A stretch of 64,000 bases of DNA, taken from assembly GCF_032248455.1 (NCBI RefSeq), contig NZ_JAVTTP010000001.1, positions 558,001-622,000 on the forward strand, in the 5' to 3' direction. Below, piece after piece: positions 32,167 to 38,581 of the stretch (its first letter is position 1; each line of letters starts with the position of its first letter). The DNA is from Pricia mediterranea (GTDB lineage: Bacteria; Bacteroidota; Bacteroidia; Flavobacteriales; Flavobacteriaceae). The position numbers and the translations under genes are program-made. The notes beneath the pieces are model-generated. The model made no database searches. It was not told the origin of the DNA and worked only from the letters and a program-made list of their open reading frames with translations.

Positions 32167-33387
32167 CTAGTGGGGATGCTCCGCTTCTCCTTTTTTCATT
32201 TCCGCCATAAGATAGTACGCATTATTTTGAGCGTACCGGGCATCGGAAGCCTGGGTCTCCAAAAATGTAACCTCGGCCCAATTCCCATCCTGCATCCCCA
32301 GCACCACCTCGGTCGGCACAAAGCGCCAAGCATCAACTTCCTGTACGGCCATGAAAACAAAACTCCGCTCCCCATCGGAGGCAATAGCGCTTTCTGGAAT
32401 TGCCTCTGTCATGGCATCGTTCGTTTGAATACGGCCCTGAATGTACATGCCGGGGATTAGATTGCCCTGCTTGTTCTCGATTTCGGCGTGCACGTGCAAG
32501 GCCTTAGCATCTTGTTCGAAGGTTTTTCCCACCGAATATATCTCGGCGGTCAGCTCCTTTCCGGGAACCGATTGTACGCTAAAAGTGACCTTTTGACCCT
32601 CTTCGATCTTGTAAACGTCCTTTTCGAACACCATCAAGTCGGCATGTACATGGTGGGTGTCCACCACCTGCATAAGATTGGTCTGAGGTTCGACGTACTG
32701 CCCGGTTTTTATGTTGACTTTTTGCACGTGGCCGGCTATCGGGCTGCGCAAGGCGATCCGCTGATAGATGGTGCCTTCACGTACCCCAGATGGACTTATA
32801 CTCAATTGATGCAATTGGGCCGCCAGTCCCCGGGCCCTGCTTCGGGATGTCTCATATTCCGCTTCGGACTTTTGGAAATTGGCGCCGCTACCTACTCCGG
32901 CCCCGTAGAGCCGTTCTTGCCGGTCGAATTCCTTTTTTAGATAGCGGCTGTTGCTGTACGCATTCAAATAATCCGTCTGCTTTTGAATGATATTCGGATG
33001 CGACAGATAGGCGACCGTCTGCCCTTTATCGACCTTATCGCCCTCGATAACCTCGATGGCGACGATGTTCGCCCCTATGACAGATGTAATGGTCGCTTCG
33101 CTCTGGGGCGGGACCTCAAGTTGGCCGTTGGCTTCGACGTAGCCGCCCATTTTGCGCATTTGCAAGGGACCGACCTCCATTTGTAAAGCCTCAAATTGTT
33201 GAGAGGTCAACAGCATGCCCTTCGTTTCCCCATTGGAACCATTTTCCCCTGTAGGGTGGTCGTTGATTTCTCCAACGGGGTCATCTTCGCGGTTTTGATC
33301 CGTTTCTGATACGGAATCGCCGCAGGCCATAAGATTGAAAAGCGTCAGCGCTACTCCTATAATCATGTATTTGGATAGAATATTCAT
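32167..33387 (-). CDS. Efflux RND periplasmic adaptor (CusB/CzcB type) lipoprotein
   Basis: A protein of 406 residues. Signal with lipobox (GVALTLFNLMACGDS, Cys 22), an acidic linker, then membrane-fusion-protein domains: VEANGQLEVPPQSEATITS, IEVIEGDKVDKGQTVAYLSH (lipoyl part), a helical hairpin (YLNAYSNSRYLKKEFDRQER), RSPIAGHVQKVNIKTGQYVE and the beta-barrel with GMYIQGRIQ. No N-terminal His-rich extension. It lies 28 bp after the CusA-TolC gene on the same strand and completes the efflux complex for a monovalent or divalent metal. ATG 33387 is preferred to a longer frame. Confidence 0.92.
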   Translation of the reverse strand: MNILSKYMIIGVALTLFNLMACGDSVSETDQNREDDPVGEINDHPTGENGSNGETKGMLLTSQQFEALQMEVGPLQMRKMGGYVEANGQLEVPPQSEATITSVIGANIVAIEVIEGDKVDKGQTVAYLSHPNIIQKQTDYLNAYSNSRYLKKEFDRQERLYGAGVGSGANFQKSEAEYETSRSRARGLAAQLHQLSISPSGVREGTIYQRIALRSPIAGHVQKVNIKTGQYVEPQTNLMQVVDTHHVHADLMVFEKDVYKIEEGQKVTFSVQSVPGKELTAEIYSVGKTFEQDAKALHVHAEIENKQGNLIPGMYIQGRIQTNDAMTEAIPESAIASDGERSFVFMAVQEVDAWRFVPTEVVLGMQDGNWAEVTFLETQASDARYAQNNAYYLMAEMKKGEAEHPH

Positions 33388-33415
33388 TGTTATAATTTTT
33401 AGTTTGTAATTACTG

Positions 33416-36400
33416 TTAGTCCCTTGTTTCCGGAGTATCTGGTACAGCTCTAAAATAGTGTAGTTCGAATACGGATAATAAATAATTGTCAAGGGCCTCC
33501 AAGGCGTCGATCTCTGTCTTTATGGCATCCCGGATAATTTGCGTGAATGCGGGATAATCGACCGCGCCTTCGGTATAGGCCAGCAAGGCCCCTTCGCGTT
33601 GTTGCTCCGCCAGCGGCAAGGCTTCTTGCTCGAAGAAATGCCAAGCGGATTTCCACGTAGTATAGGACTGGACGGCCGCTTGATAGTCCGAGTGAAGTTG
33701 GCGACGGGCGAAATCCGAATTGACCGTGGCGATGTCGATATCGATCTTCGCGGCCTTCGCCCGGCTTCGTTCCGTACCGGAGAGGAGGGGAATTGAGATG
33801 CCTGCCTGATACTTGTAAAATCCTCCTTGATCGTTGATTTTTTGAAATCCCGCCTCCAGGTTGAAATCAGGTAACAGATCGGCACGGGCGGCCCGATAAC
33901 TGGCTTCGGCCTCGGCCTTCCGGTTACGGGATATTTCGAGCTCGGGATGGTCCTCCAAACCCATTTCCGTCTCCAGCAATCCCATTCCATCATCGTCAAA
34001 CGTATCGGGCACGGAATAATAGGTTTGGGTATTTTTCCCGTCGCCAGGCAAGACCAGCCAAAGGTTGAGTTGCTGCAGGGCAACGGCGAACTCTTTTTTA
34101 GCCAGTAGCAGCTTGTTCTTGATCTGTAAGGCCTGATTTACGGCGGATGAACGTTCCAATCGTGAGATGGCCTCCACCTCGTAATTGAGTTCGACCGCCT
34201 TTTCAAACCGGGTGTATATCGAATCCAGTTCCTTGTACAATTCCCATGTCCGGCGTTTACGATGGGCTTGCGACCATGCCCTTTTTACTTCCCGTTCAAC
34301 CTGTAGCATGGTAAGATCAAGGGCCGTCTCTGCCAAAGCGACCCGTTGTTTTTGCAAGCGTTTCTTAGCCCCGATACCGAAAAGATCGATATTATTTTGT
34401 CCTACCCCGACGAGCGTGTACGTGCCCCTTTCATCGGAGAGTTCCTCGCCACCTGTAAATACCCGGGTAGTGCCAAGGTCGTAGGCGGTTGCGTCAAAGG
34501 CGTTTTGCCGATGTACTTCCAAGCGCTTTGTTTTAAGCAACGGATAGTTCGCTTTGGCCATTTCAACGGCCTTATGCAGGGAAATTTCGGGCAGGGCCTC
34601 CTGTTTTCCGATCTCTTGTGCGGGCAGTAGGGAGGGACAAAGGAAAAGCCCGGCCACGACCACGGCGGTTACAAATTTAGGATTGCTATTCGCCTTCCGC
34701 TCCGAACGCTTCTCGACATACTGATAAAAAATAGGAAGCACGAAAAGGGTCAGCAGGGTGGACGTAATCAGGCCGCCGATCACAACAGTCGCCAGGGGCC
34801 GCTGTACCTCTGCTCCTGCAGACATCGAGATCGCCATGGGCATAAAGCCAAGAATATCGGTCAGTGCCGTCAACATAATCGGGCGAATCCTTCGTTTGGT
34901 GCCCTGTACGATACGGTCTTTTAGATCGGCTACGCCCTCTTCCTTGAGCTCGTTCAAGCCGCTGATCAGTACCAATCCGTTGAGCACCGCCACCCCGAAG
35001 AGCACGATAAATCCCACTCCCGCCGAAATACTGAACGGCATATCGCGCAGCCATAGCGCAAACACCCCGCCAATGGTGGCCATCGGAATGGCCAAATAGA
35101 TCATAAGGGTCTGCGATAGCGACTTTAGGGCGAAGTAGATGAGTATGAATATGAGGAACAGGGCAATGGGTACGACCGTTTGCAACCGATTACTAGCCCG
35201 TTCCAGGTTTTCGAACGCACCCCCGTATCGAATGTAATAGCCGGCGGGAAGATCGAACCGGGCTTCCAATTTGGTTTGGATATCCTCCACGACGGATTCC
35301 ACATCGCGGTCCCGGATGTTGATCCCTACGTACGTACGCCGGTTGGTATTGTCCCGACTGATCTGCATCGGACCGGGGGCATAATGGATATCGGCGATTT
35401 CCCGTAATGGGATGTGAGCGCCGTTGGGCAGGTTGATGAAAAGATTTTCCAAGTCCTCTATGCTCTCACGGTTTTCTTGGTTCAACCGGACGACCAGATC
35501 AAACCGTTTCTCTCCTTCAAAAATCACCCCCGCCTTCGCACCGGCGAATGCGGCTTTCACCAAAGTATTGATTTGATCGATATCAAGGCCATACTGCGCC
35601 AATTTGTTCCTGTTGTATTCAACGTTGATCTGAGGTAGGCCGGCGGTAGCTTCCACCTTAAGATCGGCCACCCCGGGCACCGTCGCGATGATCCTGCCCA
35701 TTTCCTCCGCCTTTGCGGCCAGCACGTCGAGGTCTTCCCCGAACAGTTTAACGGCAACATCTTCGCGTACCCCGGTCAGCAGTTCGTTAAACCGCATTTC
35801 GATGGGCTGGGTAAACTCATAATTTACGCCGGGAAGAATGCTGACCGCAGTTTTGATCTTATCGACCAATTCTTCCTTGCTTTCGGCGGAGGTCCACTCA
35901 TCGCGAGGCTTTAGAATGACAAAGATATCGGCGATGTCCATCGGCATGGGGTCCGTAGGTACATCGGCTACCCCGATTCGACTGATTACCGATTTCGCCT
36001 CTGGAAATTCCGCTTTGACGATCTGTTCCACCTTTGTGGTGACCTCAATCGTCTCGGAGAGGGAACTACCGGGTTTCAACAGGGCGTGGAAAGCGATATC
36101 CCCTTCATCCAACTGGGGAATGAATTCACCCCCCAACTGGCTAAGAACAAGAATCGCCAAGGCAAAAAGGGCCAGGGCAACCCCGACTACCCTTTTCCGA
36201 TAGCGCAGCGACCTGACCAATAATGGCTCGTACTTGCGGCCAACCCAATTCACAAAACGATCGCTATAGTTTCGCTTCGGTTTGGCTTCGTCTTGAGTGA
36301 GAGTCCCTCGTGTTTCATTTTTCCCAGGGATCGCTTTACTCGATGGCAACCTCAAAAACAGGGCGGATACCATGGGCACGTAGGTCAGGCATAACAGCAT

Positions 36401-37876
36401 GGCCCCGATCATCGCAAAGATAAAGGTCAGGGCCATCGGGCGGAACATCTTGCCCTCGACCCCTTCAAGGGCCAAAATGGGTAAAAACACGATCAAAATG
36501 ATCAACTGGCCGAAAAAAGCGGTGTTCATCATTTTTTTAGAAGCTTTTGCGGCGATTTTATCCTTTGTGGATTGGATATTTAAAGGGCCCTCCCCCTCGG
36601 TCCGGCGTTTTTTAACGTAACCCATCATCATAAATACCATGGCCTCAACGATGATGACCGAACCGTCAACGATAATACCAAAATCGATGGCGCCCAGGCT
36701 CATCAGGTTGGCCCACACATCGAACACGTTCATCATGATAAAAGCGAACAAAAGAGACAAGGGGATGGTGGAGGCTACGATCAGGCCGCCCCGCCAATTG
36801 CCCAATAGCAACACCAGAACGAAAATTACGACCAGGCCCCCTTCCATTAGATTTCCGGTCACCGTGCCGGTAGTTTCCGCAATCAGTTCGCTCCGGTCCA
36901 GAAAAGGTTCGATCCGCACCCCTTCGGGTAGGGATTGTTGGATCTGTTCCATTCTTTCCTTCACGTTCTCAATGACCTCGTTCGAATTGGCGCCCTTCAA
37001 CATGAGGATCATTCCCCCAACGGCCTCGCCTTGTCCATTCTTTGTCAGCGCCCCGTAGCGTACGGCGCTGCCGATGGTAACCTCACCGACATCCTTTATC
37101 TTGAACGGAACTCCCGCCTCGGACTTGACCACAATACTCTCGATATCCGATATGCTTCTCGCCAGGCCCTCGCCGCGGATAAAATTGGCCTGATGGTTAC
37201 GCTCGATATACGCCCCGCCCGTATTTCGGTTGTTATTTTTCAAAGCGGAGAATACGTCGGAAATCGTAATCCCGATAGCACGGAGCTCTTGTGGGTCAAC
37301 GCTCACCTCGTATTGCTTTTTGTTCCCGCCGAATGCATTGACCTCCACGACCCCGGGCACCATCGCCATCTGCCTGCGTACGATCCAATCTTGCATCGTA
37401 CGCAACTCGGTAGCATTATACCCATAGCCCTCATCCACTTCAAGCGTATATTGGAATATTTCACTCAAGCCCGTTGCAATAGGACCCATGGAAGGCGTTC
37501 CGAAGCCCTCGGGAATCTCTTCCCTGACCTCGATAAGCTTTTCGGAAACCAATTGTCTCGGAAGAAAGGTGCCGACCGCATCATCGAATACAATGGTAAC
37601 TACAGAGAGCCCGAACCGCGAGACGGAACGGATTTCCTTGACGTCGGGCAAATTGCTCATGGCCACTTCTACGGGGTAGGTGACAAATTGCTCGATATCT
37701 TCGGTGCCCAGATTAGGGGCTTGGGTGATGACCTGTACCTGATTGTTCGTGATGTCGGGCACGGCATCGATGGGGACCTGGGTCATGCTCCAAATTCCCC
37801 CTACAATGAGCACTAAGGTAAGGAGCCCGATACTAAATTTATTGTGAATGGAAAAATCAATGATTCGATTGATCAT
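33416..37876 (-). CDS. CusA/CzcA heavy-metal RND pump fused to a TolC-family outer-membrane channel
   Basis: A protein of 1486 residues. Residues 1 to about 1060 form the full HME-RND pump with 12 helices (FSIGLLTLVLIVGGIWSMTQ, IDFGIIVDGSVIIVEAMVF with the proton-relay Asp, RIGVADVPTDPMPMD, and GVAVLNGLVLISG). About 1075-1092 is a thirteenth hydrophobic segment (VTAVVVAGLFLCPSLLPAQE) that resembles a signal peptide, followed by a TolC domain (about 1100-1486, with long coiled helices, AVEMAKANYPLLKTKRLEV and GISIPLLSGTERSRAKAAKI). The fusion is known from Bacteroidota. It is transcribed after a Cys/His-rich small protein and before CusB; its leader has nested inverted repeats. The metal is not determined (Cu/Ag or Zn/Co/Cd). 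Confidence 0.95.
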   Translation of the reverse strand: MINRIIDFSIHNKFSIGLLTLVLIVGGIWSMTQVPIDAVPDITNNQVQVITQAPNLGTEDIEQFVTYPVEVAMSNLPDVKEIRSVSRFGLSVVTIVFDDAVGTFLPRQLVSEKLIEVREEIPEGFGTPSMGPIATGLSEIFQYTLEVDEGYGYNATELRTMQDWIVRRQMAMVPGVVEVNAFGGNKKQYEVSVDPQELRAIGITISDVFSALKNNNRNTGGAYIERNHQANFIRGEGLARSISDIESIVVKSEAGVPFKIKDVGEVTIGSAVRYGALTKNGQGEAVGGMILMLKGANSNEVIENVKERMEQIQQSLPEGVRIEPFLDRSELIAETTGTVTGNLMEGGLVVIFVLVLLLGNWRGGLIVASTIPLSLLFAFIMMNVFDVWANLMSLGAIDFGIIVDGSVIIVEAMVFMMMGYVKKRRTEGEGPLNIQSTKDKIAAKASKKMMNTAFFGQLIILIVFLPILALEGVEGKMFRPMALTFIFAMIGAMLLCLTYVPMVSALFLRLPSSKAIPGKNETRGTLTQDEAKPKRNYSDRFVNWVGRKYEPLLVRSLRYRKRVVGVALALFALAILVLSQLGGEFIPQLDEGDIAFHALLKPGSSLSETIEVTTKVEQIVKAEFPEAKSVISRIGVADVPTDPMPMDIADIFVILKPRDEWTSAESKEELVDKIKTAVSILPGVNYEFTQPIEMRFNELLTGVREDVAVKLFGEDLDVLAAKAEEMGRIIATVPGVADLKVEATAGLPQINVEYNRNKLAQYGLDIDQINTLVKAAFAGAKAGVIFEGEKRFDLVVRLNQENRESIEDLENLFINLPNGAHIPLREIADIHYAPGPMQISRDNTNRRTYVGINIRDRDVESVVEDIQTKLEARFDLPAGYYIRYGGAFENLERASNRLQTVVPIALFLIFILIYFALKSLSQTLMIYLAIPMATIGGVFALWLRDMPFSISAGVGFIVLFGVAVLNGLVLISGLNELKEEGVADLKDRIVQGTKRRIRPIMLTALTDILGFMPMAISMSAGAEVQRPLATVVIGGLITSTLLTLFVLPIFYQYVEKRSERKANSNPKFVTAVVVAGLFLCPSLLPAQEIGKQEALPEISLHKAVEMAKANYPLLKTKRLEVHRQNAFDATAYDLGTTRVFTGGEELSDERGTYTLVGVGQNNIDLFGIGAKKRLQKQRVALAETALDLTMLQVEREVKRAWSQAHRKRRTWELYKELDSIYTRFEKAVELNYEVEAISRLERSSAVNQALQIKNKLLLAKKEFAVALQQLNLWLVLPGDGKNTQTYYSVPDTFDDDGMGLLETEMGLEDHPELEISRNRKAEAEASYRAARADLLPDFNLEAGFQKINDQGGFYKYQAGISIPLLSGTERSRAKAAKIDIDIATVNSDFARRQLHSDYQAAVQSYTTWKSAWHFFEQEALPLAEQQREGALLAYTEGAVDYPAFTQIIRDAIKTEIDALEALDNYLLSVFELHYFRAVPDTPETRD

Positions 37877-37886
37877 GGGTAGAATT

Positions 37887-38000
37887 TTAATTCAGTTGAC
37901 ATAGCGTGAGCCGCCCGAGGAACGGTCCACGCACTTTAGACCTAGGCAAAGAAAGCATAGGTCAAGATAGGATGTAGCTATCCTATTAAAACTGAATTAA
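37887..38000 (-). promoter_or_regulatory. Nested inverted repeats in the CusA-TolC leader
   Basis: Outer arms TTAATTCAGTT (37887-37897) and AACTGAATTAA (37990-38000) are perfectly complementary. Inside lie three hairpins: GCGTG/CACGC (37904-37908 with 37928-37932), GACCTA/TAGGTC (37939-37944 with 37958-37963) and ATAGGAT/ATCCTAT (37967-37973 with 37980-37986). One outer arm contains the stop codon (37997-37999) of the upstream small protein, the other ends 10 nt before the CusA start. A multibranched RNA element is possible. Confidence 0.5.
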
Positions 38001-38314
38001 GCCCGGGGAGGTTGAAAAAGTGAATGGGGAAAATCGTTGCCCGCACTATCGAAATGGGCGAAGTCCGCTTGTGGAAAAGCAGGTTGGTAAGGGTCATAAC
38101 CGACCAGCTCGAATTTGGTACTATGGGTGTGGCAACAATGGCATCCGCAGAAAGGAGAGCAGAGATCGGAAGTACAGGGGCTATGATCATGACCGACACC
38201 CTGATCTTGCACCAGCTCGGTCTGGGTCGAATCTTCGGTTACCGGTTCGTCTTGACAGGGCAGCACATTGAGCGCCAAGAAATATATAGACAAGATCAGG
38301 CCCAACATTTTCAT
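37997..38314 (-). CDS. Small exported Cys/His-rich protein (DUF6660-type), metal-efflux associated
   Basis: A protein of 105 residues. Signal peptide MKMLGLILSIYFLALNVLPC, an acidic linker, then a compact cluster HDHSPCTSDLCSPFCGCHCC followed by HTH (residues 42-64), with six cysteines and several histidines. It matches the small proteins placed before CusA genes in Flavobacteriia (DUF6660-type, from memory). Periplasmic metal binding is likely. The gene ends within the 5' arm of the leader stem of the CusA-TolC gene, 120 bp upstream of that start, so its translation could influence pump expression. No own terminator is visible; probably first gene of the efflux operon. Confidence 0.85.
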   Translation of the reverse strand: MKMLGLILSIYFLALNVLPCQDEPVTEDSTQTELVQDQGVGHDHSPCTSDLCSPFCGCHCCHTHSTKFELVGYDPYQPAFPQADFAHFDSAGNDFPHSLFQPPRA

Positions 38315-38581
38315 GGCACAAAATTAAGGGGATCGAAGTACGTCGGCAAACTATTTTTAAATTATTGTCAATTTTTTTAGGGGAGCCTAACAAAAAGATA
38401 GATCAATCCGGTCGTTGAAAATCCCGGTCGGGCTACTGACATTACGGACGTAGGGAAGGCGGCATGATTTTTTCTACGGCACAACGTCCATTAGAGCAGT
38501 TGGAAAGAGGATAAAGGCGTATTTCTTGTTTGGGGATTGAGGGTTTTGTAATCTTGTAAAGCCCCGTGAAAAAAAGACCTT
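38315..38581. other. Divergent intergenic region
   Basis: A 267-bp gap between the small Cys/His-rich gene (minus) and the BCCT gene (plus). No gene seen. A TTGACA-like sequence lies on the minus strand in the first 60 bp, but no exact -7 element was found. Confidence 0.35.

Follow-up and report, generated by a model that had tools for sequence, protein, structure and literature searches.

The DNA analysed here, a 64,000-nucleotide stretch of Pricia mediterranea (the window: positions 558,001 to 622,000 of contig NZ_JAVTTP010000001.1, assembly GCF_032248455.1), carries on its minus strand a small gene for a Cys/His-rich protein of family DUF6660, followed by genes for a CusA-type pump fused to an OEP domain and for a CusB-type adaptor, the latter presumably in one operon with the pump (Table 1). 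Between DUF6660 and the ATG of the pump gene lie 120 nt, and the RNA of this interval is predicted to fold into a stem that runs from the end of the small gene to the start of the large one. The first-pass annotation of positions 37876-38314, outer coordinates that proved correct, had proposed that this stem may form a translation-coupled RNA switch controlling the pump.

The physical description of the element held up. The two arms of the 11-bp outer stem are fully complementary, the stop codon of DUF6660 sits within the 5' arm, and 10 nt separate the 3' arm from the pump ATG. Folding of positions 38030-37860 as minus-strand RNA recovered the outer stem and three inner hairpins at -45.9 kcal/mol, versus -31.0 +/- 3.5 kcal/mol for 200 dinucleotide shuffles, none of which was equally stable (z -4.28). 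The genome encodes two DUF6660 copies and no more, and at the second DUF6660-CusA locus (L010) the stem arrangement is kept while the inner hairpins have diverged (z -5.54). The three hairpins that the annotation placed inside the stem do exist in the window but are not essential, as hairpins 2 and 3 vary or are absent elsewhere (e.g. L078). Hairpin 1 is the best conserved inner part, and its start lies close to the expected edge of a ribosome that waits at the stop codon. An Rfam search of the window leader gave no match on the minus strand and a single chance match (E 4.1) on the other strand, and a consensus scan of the region found neither an intrinsic terminator nor a sigma-70 promoter. 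A mobile element or repeat was also considered and rejected, the whole element being confined to the two DUF6660 loci of the genome.

Table 1. Features of the DUF6660-CusA locus in window coordinates, with the location of a second leader family in its own loci
Feature	Position	Strand	Basis or remark
DUF6660 leader protein, 105 aa	37997..38314	minus	PF20365, E 2.4e-36
CusA-type RND pump fused to OEP/TolC domain, 1486 aa	33416..37876	minus	PF00873, E 1.5e-284; PF02321, E 7.3e-34
CusB/HlyD-type adaptor gene	32167..33492	minus	PF16576, E 2e-35
-7 promoter element TAATTTTG, TAnnTTTG type	38319..38326	minus	ends 4 nt before DUF6660 start codon
Cys cluster codons C52-C61 (CSPFCGCHCC), likely metal site as judged from sequence	38132..38161	minus	C52, C58 and C61 invariant, 58/58
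Pro-Pro codons P102 P103, candidate pause site	38006..38011	minus	41 residues past Cys cluster; Pro-Pro in 90/90 loci
Outer stem, 5' arm TTAATTCAGTT	38000-37990	minus	includes DUF6660 stop codon TAA, 37999-37997
Outer stem, 3' arm AACTGAATTAA	37897-37887	minus	ends 10 nt upstream of pump ATG at 37876
Hairpin 1, conserved GGAUAnCUAUAUCC type	37986-37967	minus	fold and comparison of loci
Hairpin 2, variable	37963-37939	minus	fold
Hairpin 3, variable, missing at some loci	37932-37904	minus	fold
Second, His-rich leader family	L259:1114-1506, L252, L262, L266-L295		tails mostly QPPKV/QPPRA; before CusA genes

DUF6660 leaders and the genes behind them

A profile search located DUF6660 at 102 places in 91 of 249 Flavobacteriaceae genomes, and 91 of these places were read, the 11 not fetched being mostly the weakest. 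A CusA-like gene follows DUF6660 in 74 of the 91 loci, with a gap of 68-181 nt in 71 of those. In 17 loci (L029, L032, L033, L071, L073, L083-L086, L090-L093, L096-L098 and L100) the next gene lies 44-90 nt off and begins like a TonB-dependent receptor; Pfam matched plug and barrel domains in both loci of this class that were scanned (L083 and L097). Two further samples were drawn. A named set of 80 loci (L102-L181, 79 of them readable) was obtained by profile search with the alignment as query and consists of what we take to be Bacteroidota, mostly Flavobacteriaceae, except for one metagenome-assembled genome titled Parvularcula. A draw across the phylum supplied 27 loci read of 58 places, 13 from the same family and 14 from outside it; an internal Met was taken as pump start in L224, L230, L232, L237 and L241, which were kept in the count and whose pumps seem to start at an upstream GTG. 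The loci are partly dependent, since grouping at 88% similarity leaves 47 of the 71 CusA leaders and the locus sets overlap in part. L042, with its frame-shifted end, was left out of all counts, L078 out of the start-codon count, L148 out of the named-set count, and L063 (gap 258 nt) and L081 (gap 379 nt) out of the stem counts.

The protein of the window combines a hydrophobic N-terminus, a Cys/His cluster and a C-terminal QPPRA. Fifty-eight aligned relatives, all of which matched PF20365 in a Pfam scan, share the hydrophobic N-terminus MKxxxxILSxYxLALN, and their invariant positions are C20, D22, C52, C58, C61, P102 and P103, and no others; NCBIfam held no match for DUF6660 itself. Pro-Pro stands near the C-terminus in every readable locus of the family (90/90), the named set (79/79) and the phylum draw (27/27). 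Among the 90 family proteins it is preceded by Gln in 80, and the residues after it number two in 66, three in 7, four in 16 and five in 1. The distance from the last Cys of the cluster to Pro-Pro is 41 residues in 64 of the 90 and 40-45 in all of them (standard deviation 0.92), and the part of the protein up to the cluster is variable in length (standard deviation 5.1). The same spacing is 41 in 79/79 named loci and 41-45 in the 26 phylum-draw loci measured. Features used to delimit proteins like CutF, a copper-sensing leader peptide discussed below (PMC9973294), are present as well: a length below 150 aa (105 aa in the window, 59-117 aa over 90 loci, measured between the beginning of the profile match and the stop, with the minimum belonging to L078, whose match lacks the N-terminus), Pro-Pro at most 15 residues from the C-terminus, a same-strand next gene within 1000 nt, and a Cys/His motif. 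By its sequence, DUF6660 bears the marks of a nascent-chain sensor.

The C-terminal end of DUF6660 looks frame-shifted, and is without Pro-Pro, in L042 and L148; in L042 an intact leader of a second family, described below, stands between the frame-shifted DUF6660 and the pump. The family also occurs on 21 plasmid records (e.g. NZ_CP037921.1 and NZ_CP092371.1), 14 of them from Hymenobacter, and adjoins CusA/CzcA in both plasmid regions read.

The motif TAnnTTTG, which we take to be the Bacteroidota -7 promoter consensus, ends 4-5 nt before the DUF6660 start in 75/89 loci and in 76/79 loci of the named set. At this distance, the mRNA probably has little or no untranslated leader, and hence no space for a riboswitch ahead of DUF6660. 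Many loci (e.g. L011) carry the operator-like site TTTGCAnnnCCnTTGCAT next to TAnnTTTG, on its upstream side. TGCAA-N5-TTGCA was present in 40/89 loci versus 8/1780 random windows, and TTGCA-N4..8-TTGCA in 21/89 versus 3/1780; the window copy (38315-38374) is without the TTTGCAnnnCCnTTGCAT site.

Conservation and register of the stop-to-start stem

The longest unbroken pairing between the region after Pro-Pro and the region before the next start averaged 10.1 bp in the 71 CusA-class loci and 10.1 bp in the 17 TonB-class loci, compared with 7.2-7.3 bp in shuffles. Within an identical placement window, a run of at least 9 pairs was found in 58/88 DUF6660 loci versus 0/45 control gene pairs (other adjacent genes with gaps of 40-200 nt), and a wider placement window raised the DUF6660 count to 64/88. 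Of 78 named-set loci with CusA, 66 had a run of at least 10 pairs. Arms also fit their own partners best. For 65 distinct CusA-class pairs the duplex energy was -13.3 kcal/mol with own and -10.2 kcal/mol with swapped arms, and for the 27 loci of the phylum draw the run was 8.8 versus 7.5; none of 10,000 permutations was as good in either case.

Compensatory change points the same way. In a MAFFT alignment of 28 leaders, 85.6% of cells were paired, versus 22-45% when slid; 7 pairs were altered on both sides versus 2.9 in shuffles (0/500), and the covariation score of 0.082 was reached by 2/500 shuffles. Arm variants that preserve pairing include TTTAATTCGGT/ACCGAATTAAA, ATTTAATTCAATT/AATTGAATTAAAT, TAATTCAACAT/ATGTTGAATTA, UUCAACAU/AUGUUGAA, UUCGGU/ACCGAA and UUCAAUU/AAUUGAA, and the named set adds UAAUACAGUU/AACUGUAUUA. 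The first-pass annotation would have been abandoned had the stem been without compensatory changes, or had the arms been missing beside other DUF6660-CusA pairs. Compensatory changes were found, and the arrangement recurs at such pairs. We conclude that the stem is a genuine RNA structure.

Its position is tied to the Pro-Pro codons. Calling a stem clear when at most 5 of 100 shuffles had a run as long, we obtained 51 clear stems among 88 loci, and in 51/51 the 5' arm begins 0-7 nt past the Pro-Pro codons, the medians being 5 nt for CusA-class and 2 nt for TonB-class loci. The stop codon normally lies 2 codons past Pro-Pro in the CusA class and 3-4 codons past it in the TonB class, and the arm starts at medians of -1 and -8, respectively, relative to the stop. 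Thus, the arm keeps next to Pro-Pro while its place relative to the stop shifts. At the other end, the 3' arm of the CusA class terminates a median of 10 nt before the pump ATG. In the 9/17 TonB-class loci with a clear stem, that stem is of quite different sequence. At L184 (own genome, C1 near 3688834), L294, L295 and the DUF6660 locus L049, the 3' arm includes the pump start codon itself.

In the window, 5 nt separate the Pro-Pro codons from the first paired base. With Pro-Pro just upstream of the stem, the front edge of a paused ribosome would fall within the 5' arm and hold the stem open. When folding calculations barred pairing through 13 nt, the first base of the stop codon being counted as the first, pump positions -22..+3 became more accessible, with their mean probability of being unpaired rising from 0.375 to 0.565 over 71 loci.

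Related RNA elements and leader families

A covariance model of the element (R1) matched only the two DUF6660 loci in the genome of the window, scoring 83.4 bits on the coding strand versus 18 on the other. Among 60 relatives it produced 18 matches in 12 genomes, 18/18 of them between a QPP-ending leader and a CusA gene, although the model is somewhat biased to leader-adjacent places because it includes the last 9 coding bases. Fifteen of these leaders were DUF6660, and 3 were a different His-rich leader without a family name. This second family occurs in 99/249 genomes. Pro-Pro was present in 30/30 of its loci read, at a Cys-to-Pro-Pro spacing of 43-46 in the 26 measured, and the R1 element in 25/30; its own arms hardly beat swapped ones (141/10,000 permutations as good), most of the arms being identical. 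The pump of L262 may be interrupted, since its frame leaves that of CusA after about 18 residues.

In a profile comparison the two families align over their C-terminal 65 residues (probability 95, E 1.9e-8), and BLASTP gave E values down to 5e-5. DUF6660 and the second family are therefore distant relatives over their C-terminal half. An exchange of two unrelated sensors on a common RNA element, which we had also entertained, is made less likely by the C-terminal homology of the leaders.

Three further CusA-like genes of the genome have such leaders, with folds at z -4.8 to -5.0. One leader is akin to the second family (E 4.8e-5), and its stem includes the pump ATG. The other two belong to HYC_CC_PP (NF047658), a family with four copies in this genome. 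No such leader was seen within the 500 nt read upstream of two other RND genes of the genome, which are 23-25% identical. HYC_CC_PP (loci L185, L186 and L191-L220) resembles DUF6660 in being a small Cys-rich open reading frame before CzcA/CusA-like or CopZ-like genes (judged from N-termini) of the same genomes, with a stop-to-start stem at part of the loci. It differs in that its Pro-Pro is about 15 residues away from the stop and its stem signal is weaker (34/10,000 permutations). Its C-terminus is strongly conserved as (Q/E)(T/V)(F/Y)(L/I)I-stop, possibly an arrest motif of another type.

A candidate nascent-chain metal sensor and its alternatives

Ribosomes paused on SecM, TnaC, MifM and other arrest peptides alter expression of the downstream gene, and SecM, VemP and MifM do so by unfolding an intergenic stem-loop. 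SecM, TnaC and MifM sense secretion or tryptophan; in contrast to what is proposed for DUF6660, no metal is involved. The closest parallel is CutF of Rhodobacter capsulatus, where copper bound to the exported nascent chain makes a pause at a C-terminal Pro-rich motif last longer, so that a stem covering the start of the next gene opens (PMC9973294). The DUF6660 loci resemble cutF-cutO in having a small leader open reading frame with a hydrophobic N-terminus, a Cys metal motif and a C-terminal Pro-Pro, in motif spacing (45 aa in CutF versus 40-45), in a stem over the start of the next gene, and in a metal-homeostasis gene downstream (PMC9973294). They differ from it in lacking a DUF2946 match, in a tail that is mostly QPPxx, in a CusA-OEP pump as the regulated gene, in a near-leaderless mRNA, and in a start guarded by a long-range stem whose 5' arm departs from the leader stop codon and whose compensatory changes extend across loci. 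The first-pass annotation had raised the prospect of a new way of sensing metals; in principle, however, such sensing has already been described, in work on CutF (PMC9973294) and, acting in the opposite sense, on CruR (PMC9426467).

On the strength of this anatomy, which fits CutF, we favor a sequence in which metal leads to a pause at QPP, an open stem and synthesis of the pump. We consider it likely that DUF6660 is a CutF-like nascent-chain metal sensor that gates pump translation via the stem, with the CusA-OEP pump as the gene regulated. The proposal draws on features read from the DNA, namely a conserved stem in conserved position, compensatory changes, invariant Pro-Pro and Cys residues at fixed spacing, a promoter at the start codon and the pump neighbors; what we infer is that the leader is exported, which metal is bound, that ribosomes pause at Pro-Pro and which way the response goes. 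From its near-leaderless mRNA, DUF6660 would be made and its export begun. With the Pro-Pro codons at the active site of the ribosome, the Cys/His cluster 41 residues away would just be leaving the membrane channel on its far side. Metal on the cluster, most likely Cu(I)/Ag(I) and possibly Zn or another soft metal, would weaken the pull on the chain and lengthen the Pro-Pro pause, and the front edge of the paused ribosome in the 5' arm would leave the 3' arm and the pump start free for translation. Without metal, DUF6660 would be completed, the ribosome released, the stem closed and the pump start shut. Conserved position, compensatory change and strand-specificity give good support to gating of the pump start by leader translation, as the first-pass annotation had it. 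That annotation also had the stem closed whenever leader translation is stalled or absent. Closure upon absent translation stands; for stalling the sign would be the reverse, as a pause at the invariant Pro-Pro (58/58), which the annotation had overlooked, would hold the stem open.

Several observations weigh against this reading. Individually, just 42/71 CusA-class and 9/17 TonB-class stems beat 95 of 100 of their own shuffles, and folds of L027, L062, L094 and L099 contain no stop-to-start stem. Three of the five covariation measures were weak or unremarkable versus shuffles of the 28 leaders: paired cells reached 84.4% in shuffles as well (18/500 as high), cells changed on both sides were matched by 68/500, and further pair types by 455/500. 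The covariation test is modest because the outer-arm sequence is strongly conserved in the main class and few positions are informative. The geometry is also demanding. The front edge of a ribosome lies at about +16; on that basis, about 5 of the 11 pairs in the window are covered while the first Pro occupies the P site, about 8 while the second Pro does, and the entire stem once the stop codon has entered the A site. Full opening of the stem therefore needs a ribosome at the stop codon. The gain in exposure of the pump start exceeded 0.2 in just 31/71 loci, a figure that comes without a control set, and in 30/71 when the bar was counted from the codon after Pro-Pro instead of the stop. Concerning the leader, ribosome arrest at QPP is a prediction from sequence, and RAPP/RGPP, the arrest motif of CruR-type leaders, occurs in 0/90 DUF6660 tails, which are mostly QPP (80/90). 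DUF2946, the Pfam family of CutF and CruR, was not among the 19 families matched by the 58 DUF6660 members in Pfam (E up to 10). Finally, the CutF tail alone seems not to be sufficient for stalling (PMC9973294).

Of the alternatives, plain translational coupling fares best, although we regard it as unlikely. Each terminating ribosome would briefly open the stem and so tie the pump to leader translation, with no sensing involved. Stalling need not be assumed in that case, and the 5' arm contains the stop codon in the window and has it at its start in many other loci. Coupling leaves unexplained, however, why Pro-Pro is invariant at 40-45 residues from an invariant Cys cluster, and why clear stems begin 0-7 nt past Pro-Pro in the TonB branch too, where the stop comes 3-4 codons after Pro-Pro.

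A response of opposite sign, modeled on CruR-bfrG of Bordetella pertussis, appears less probable still. Here the ribosome would pause at Pro-Pro by default and metal would relieve the pause, possibly with Rho-dependent termination downstream. CruR, for which spacing matters, is likewise a copper-responsive leader with a Cys motif and a C-terminal Pro-Pro; it differs in its RAPP motif, in arrest that copper relieves, in Rho termination and in the TonB transporter downstream (PMC9426467). That CruR acts in this way, its arrest having been toeprinted with the first Pro in the P site (PMC9426467, PMC12992588), lends the idea weight, as do the 17 loci with a TonB-receptor-like neighbor, where metal should lower expression. 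Yet the output of an efflux pump should rise with metal, and a stem at the pump start, in a region with no intrinsic terminator, suggests control of initiation rather than termination. According to PMC12992588, RAPP/RGPP leaders of copper-related genes were not found in Bacteroidota, among other groups.

We consider it very improbable that the intergenic RNA is itself a riboswitch for metal and DUF6660 a metal-binding protein unrelated to it. The fold before the metal pump does resemble a four-way junction and hairpin 1 is conserved, but hairpins 2 and 3 are variable or missing, Rfam has no match on the minus strand, and all R1 matches in the 60 genomes directly follow a QPP-ending leader, places that the coding bases of the model favor somewhat. 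A conserved aptamer core independent of the upstream reading frame was looked for and rejected on the same grounds, the variable inner hairpins and the 18/18 matches after a leader. Equally improbable is that the arms are a DNA operator, a terminator or a mobile-element end and not an RNA stem: arm TTAATTCAGTT is strongly conserved in the main class, but compensated variants such as TTTAATTCGGT/ACCGAATTAAA, ATTTAATTCAATT/AATTGAATTAAAT and TAATTCAACAT/ATGTTGAATTA exist, the R1 score depends on strand (83.4 versus 18 bits), no intrinsic terminator is present, and the element occurs only at the two DUF6660 copies of the genome.

Returning to the metal-sensing reading, the loci may reflect a design shared among Bacteroidota, a generalization whose chances we put at about even: a nascent metal sensor with a Pro-Pro tail, a ruler of 40-46 residues, a near-leaderless mRNA, and, under its control, a stop-to-start stem free to change in sequence so long as its pairing and its register to the Pro-Pro codons are kept. 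The design would gate pumps and, in one branch, TonB receptors, and might differ in sign between the pump and receptor branches. Leaders of no fewer than two strongly diverged families, DUF6660 and the unnamed His-rich one, would share the same RNA element. In the open-access literature, with subscription papers and preprints outside the scope, we found no paper on DUF6660, PF20365 or HYC_CC_PP. Among the papers listed there on CutF, CruR and leader or arrest peptides in connection with Bacteroidota, copper or CusA, we likewise saw none on such a system beyond PMC9973294. List D of that paper includes Bacteroidota, and ACR_tran is among the listed neighbors. Given this scope and these CusA-type neighbors, DUF6660 may already be in the CutF network (PMC9973294). 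The covarying stop-to-start stem is apparently undescribed, as is its use by a second, diverged leader family.

In many marine and soil bacteria, a small Cys-rich gene precedes a metal-efflux pump, and a ribosome pausing on it probably switches the pump on. If this is true, DUF6660, a family of unknown function, would be a metal sensor active only during its own synthesis, and control of metal pumps would be translational in many Bacteroidota. The system would also provide a case from bacteria that for the most part do without Shine-Dalgarno pairing, in which structure of the RNA near the start codon should matter most. With the length of the ruler, the Pro-Pro pair and the register of the stem each open to separate alteration, it would allow a direct test of how a nascent chain turns metal binding into ribosome pausing.

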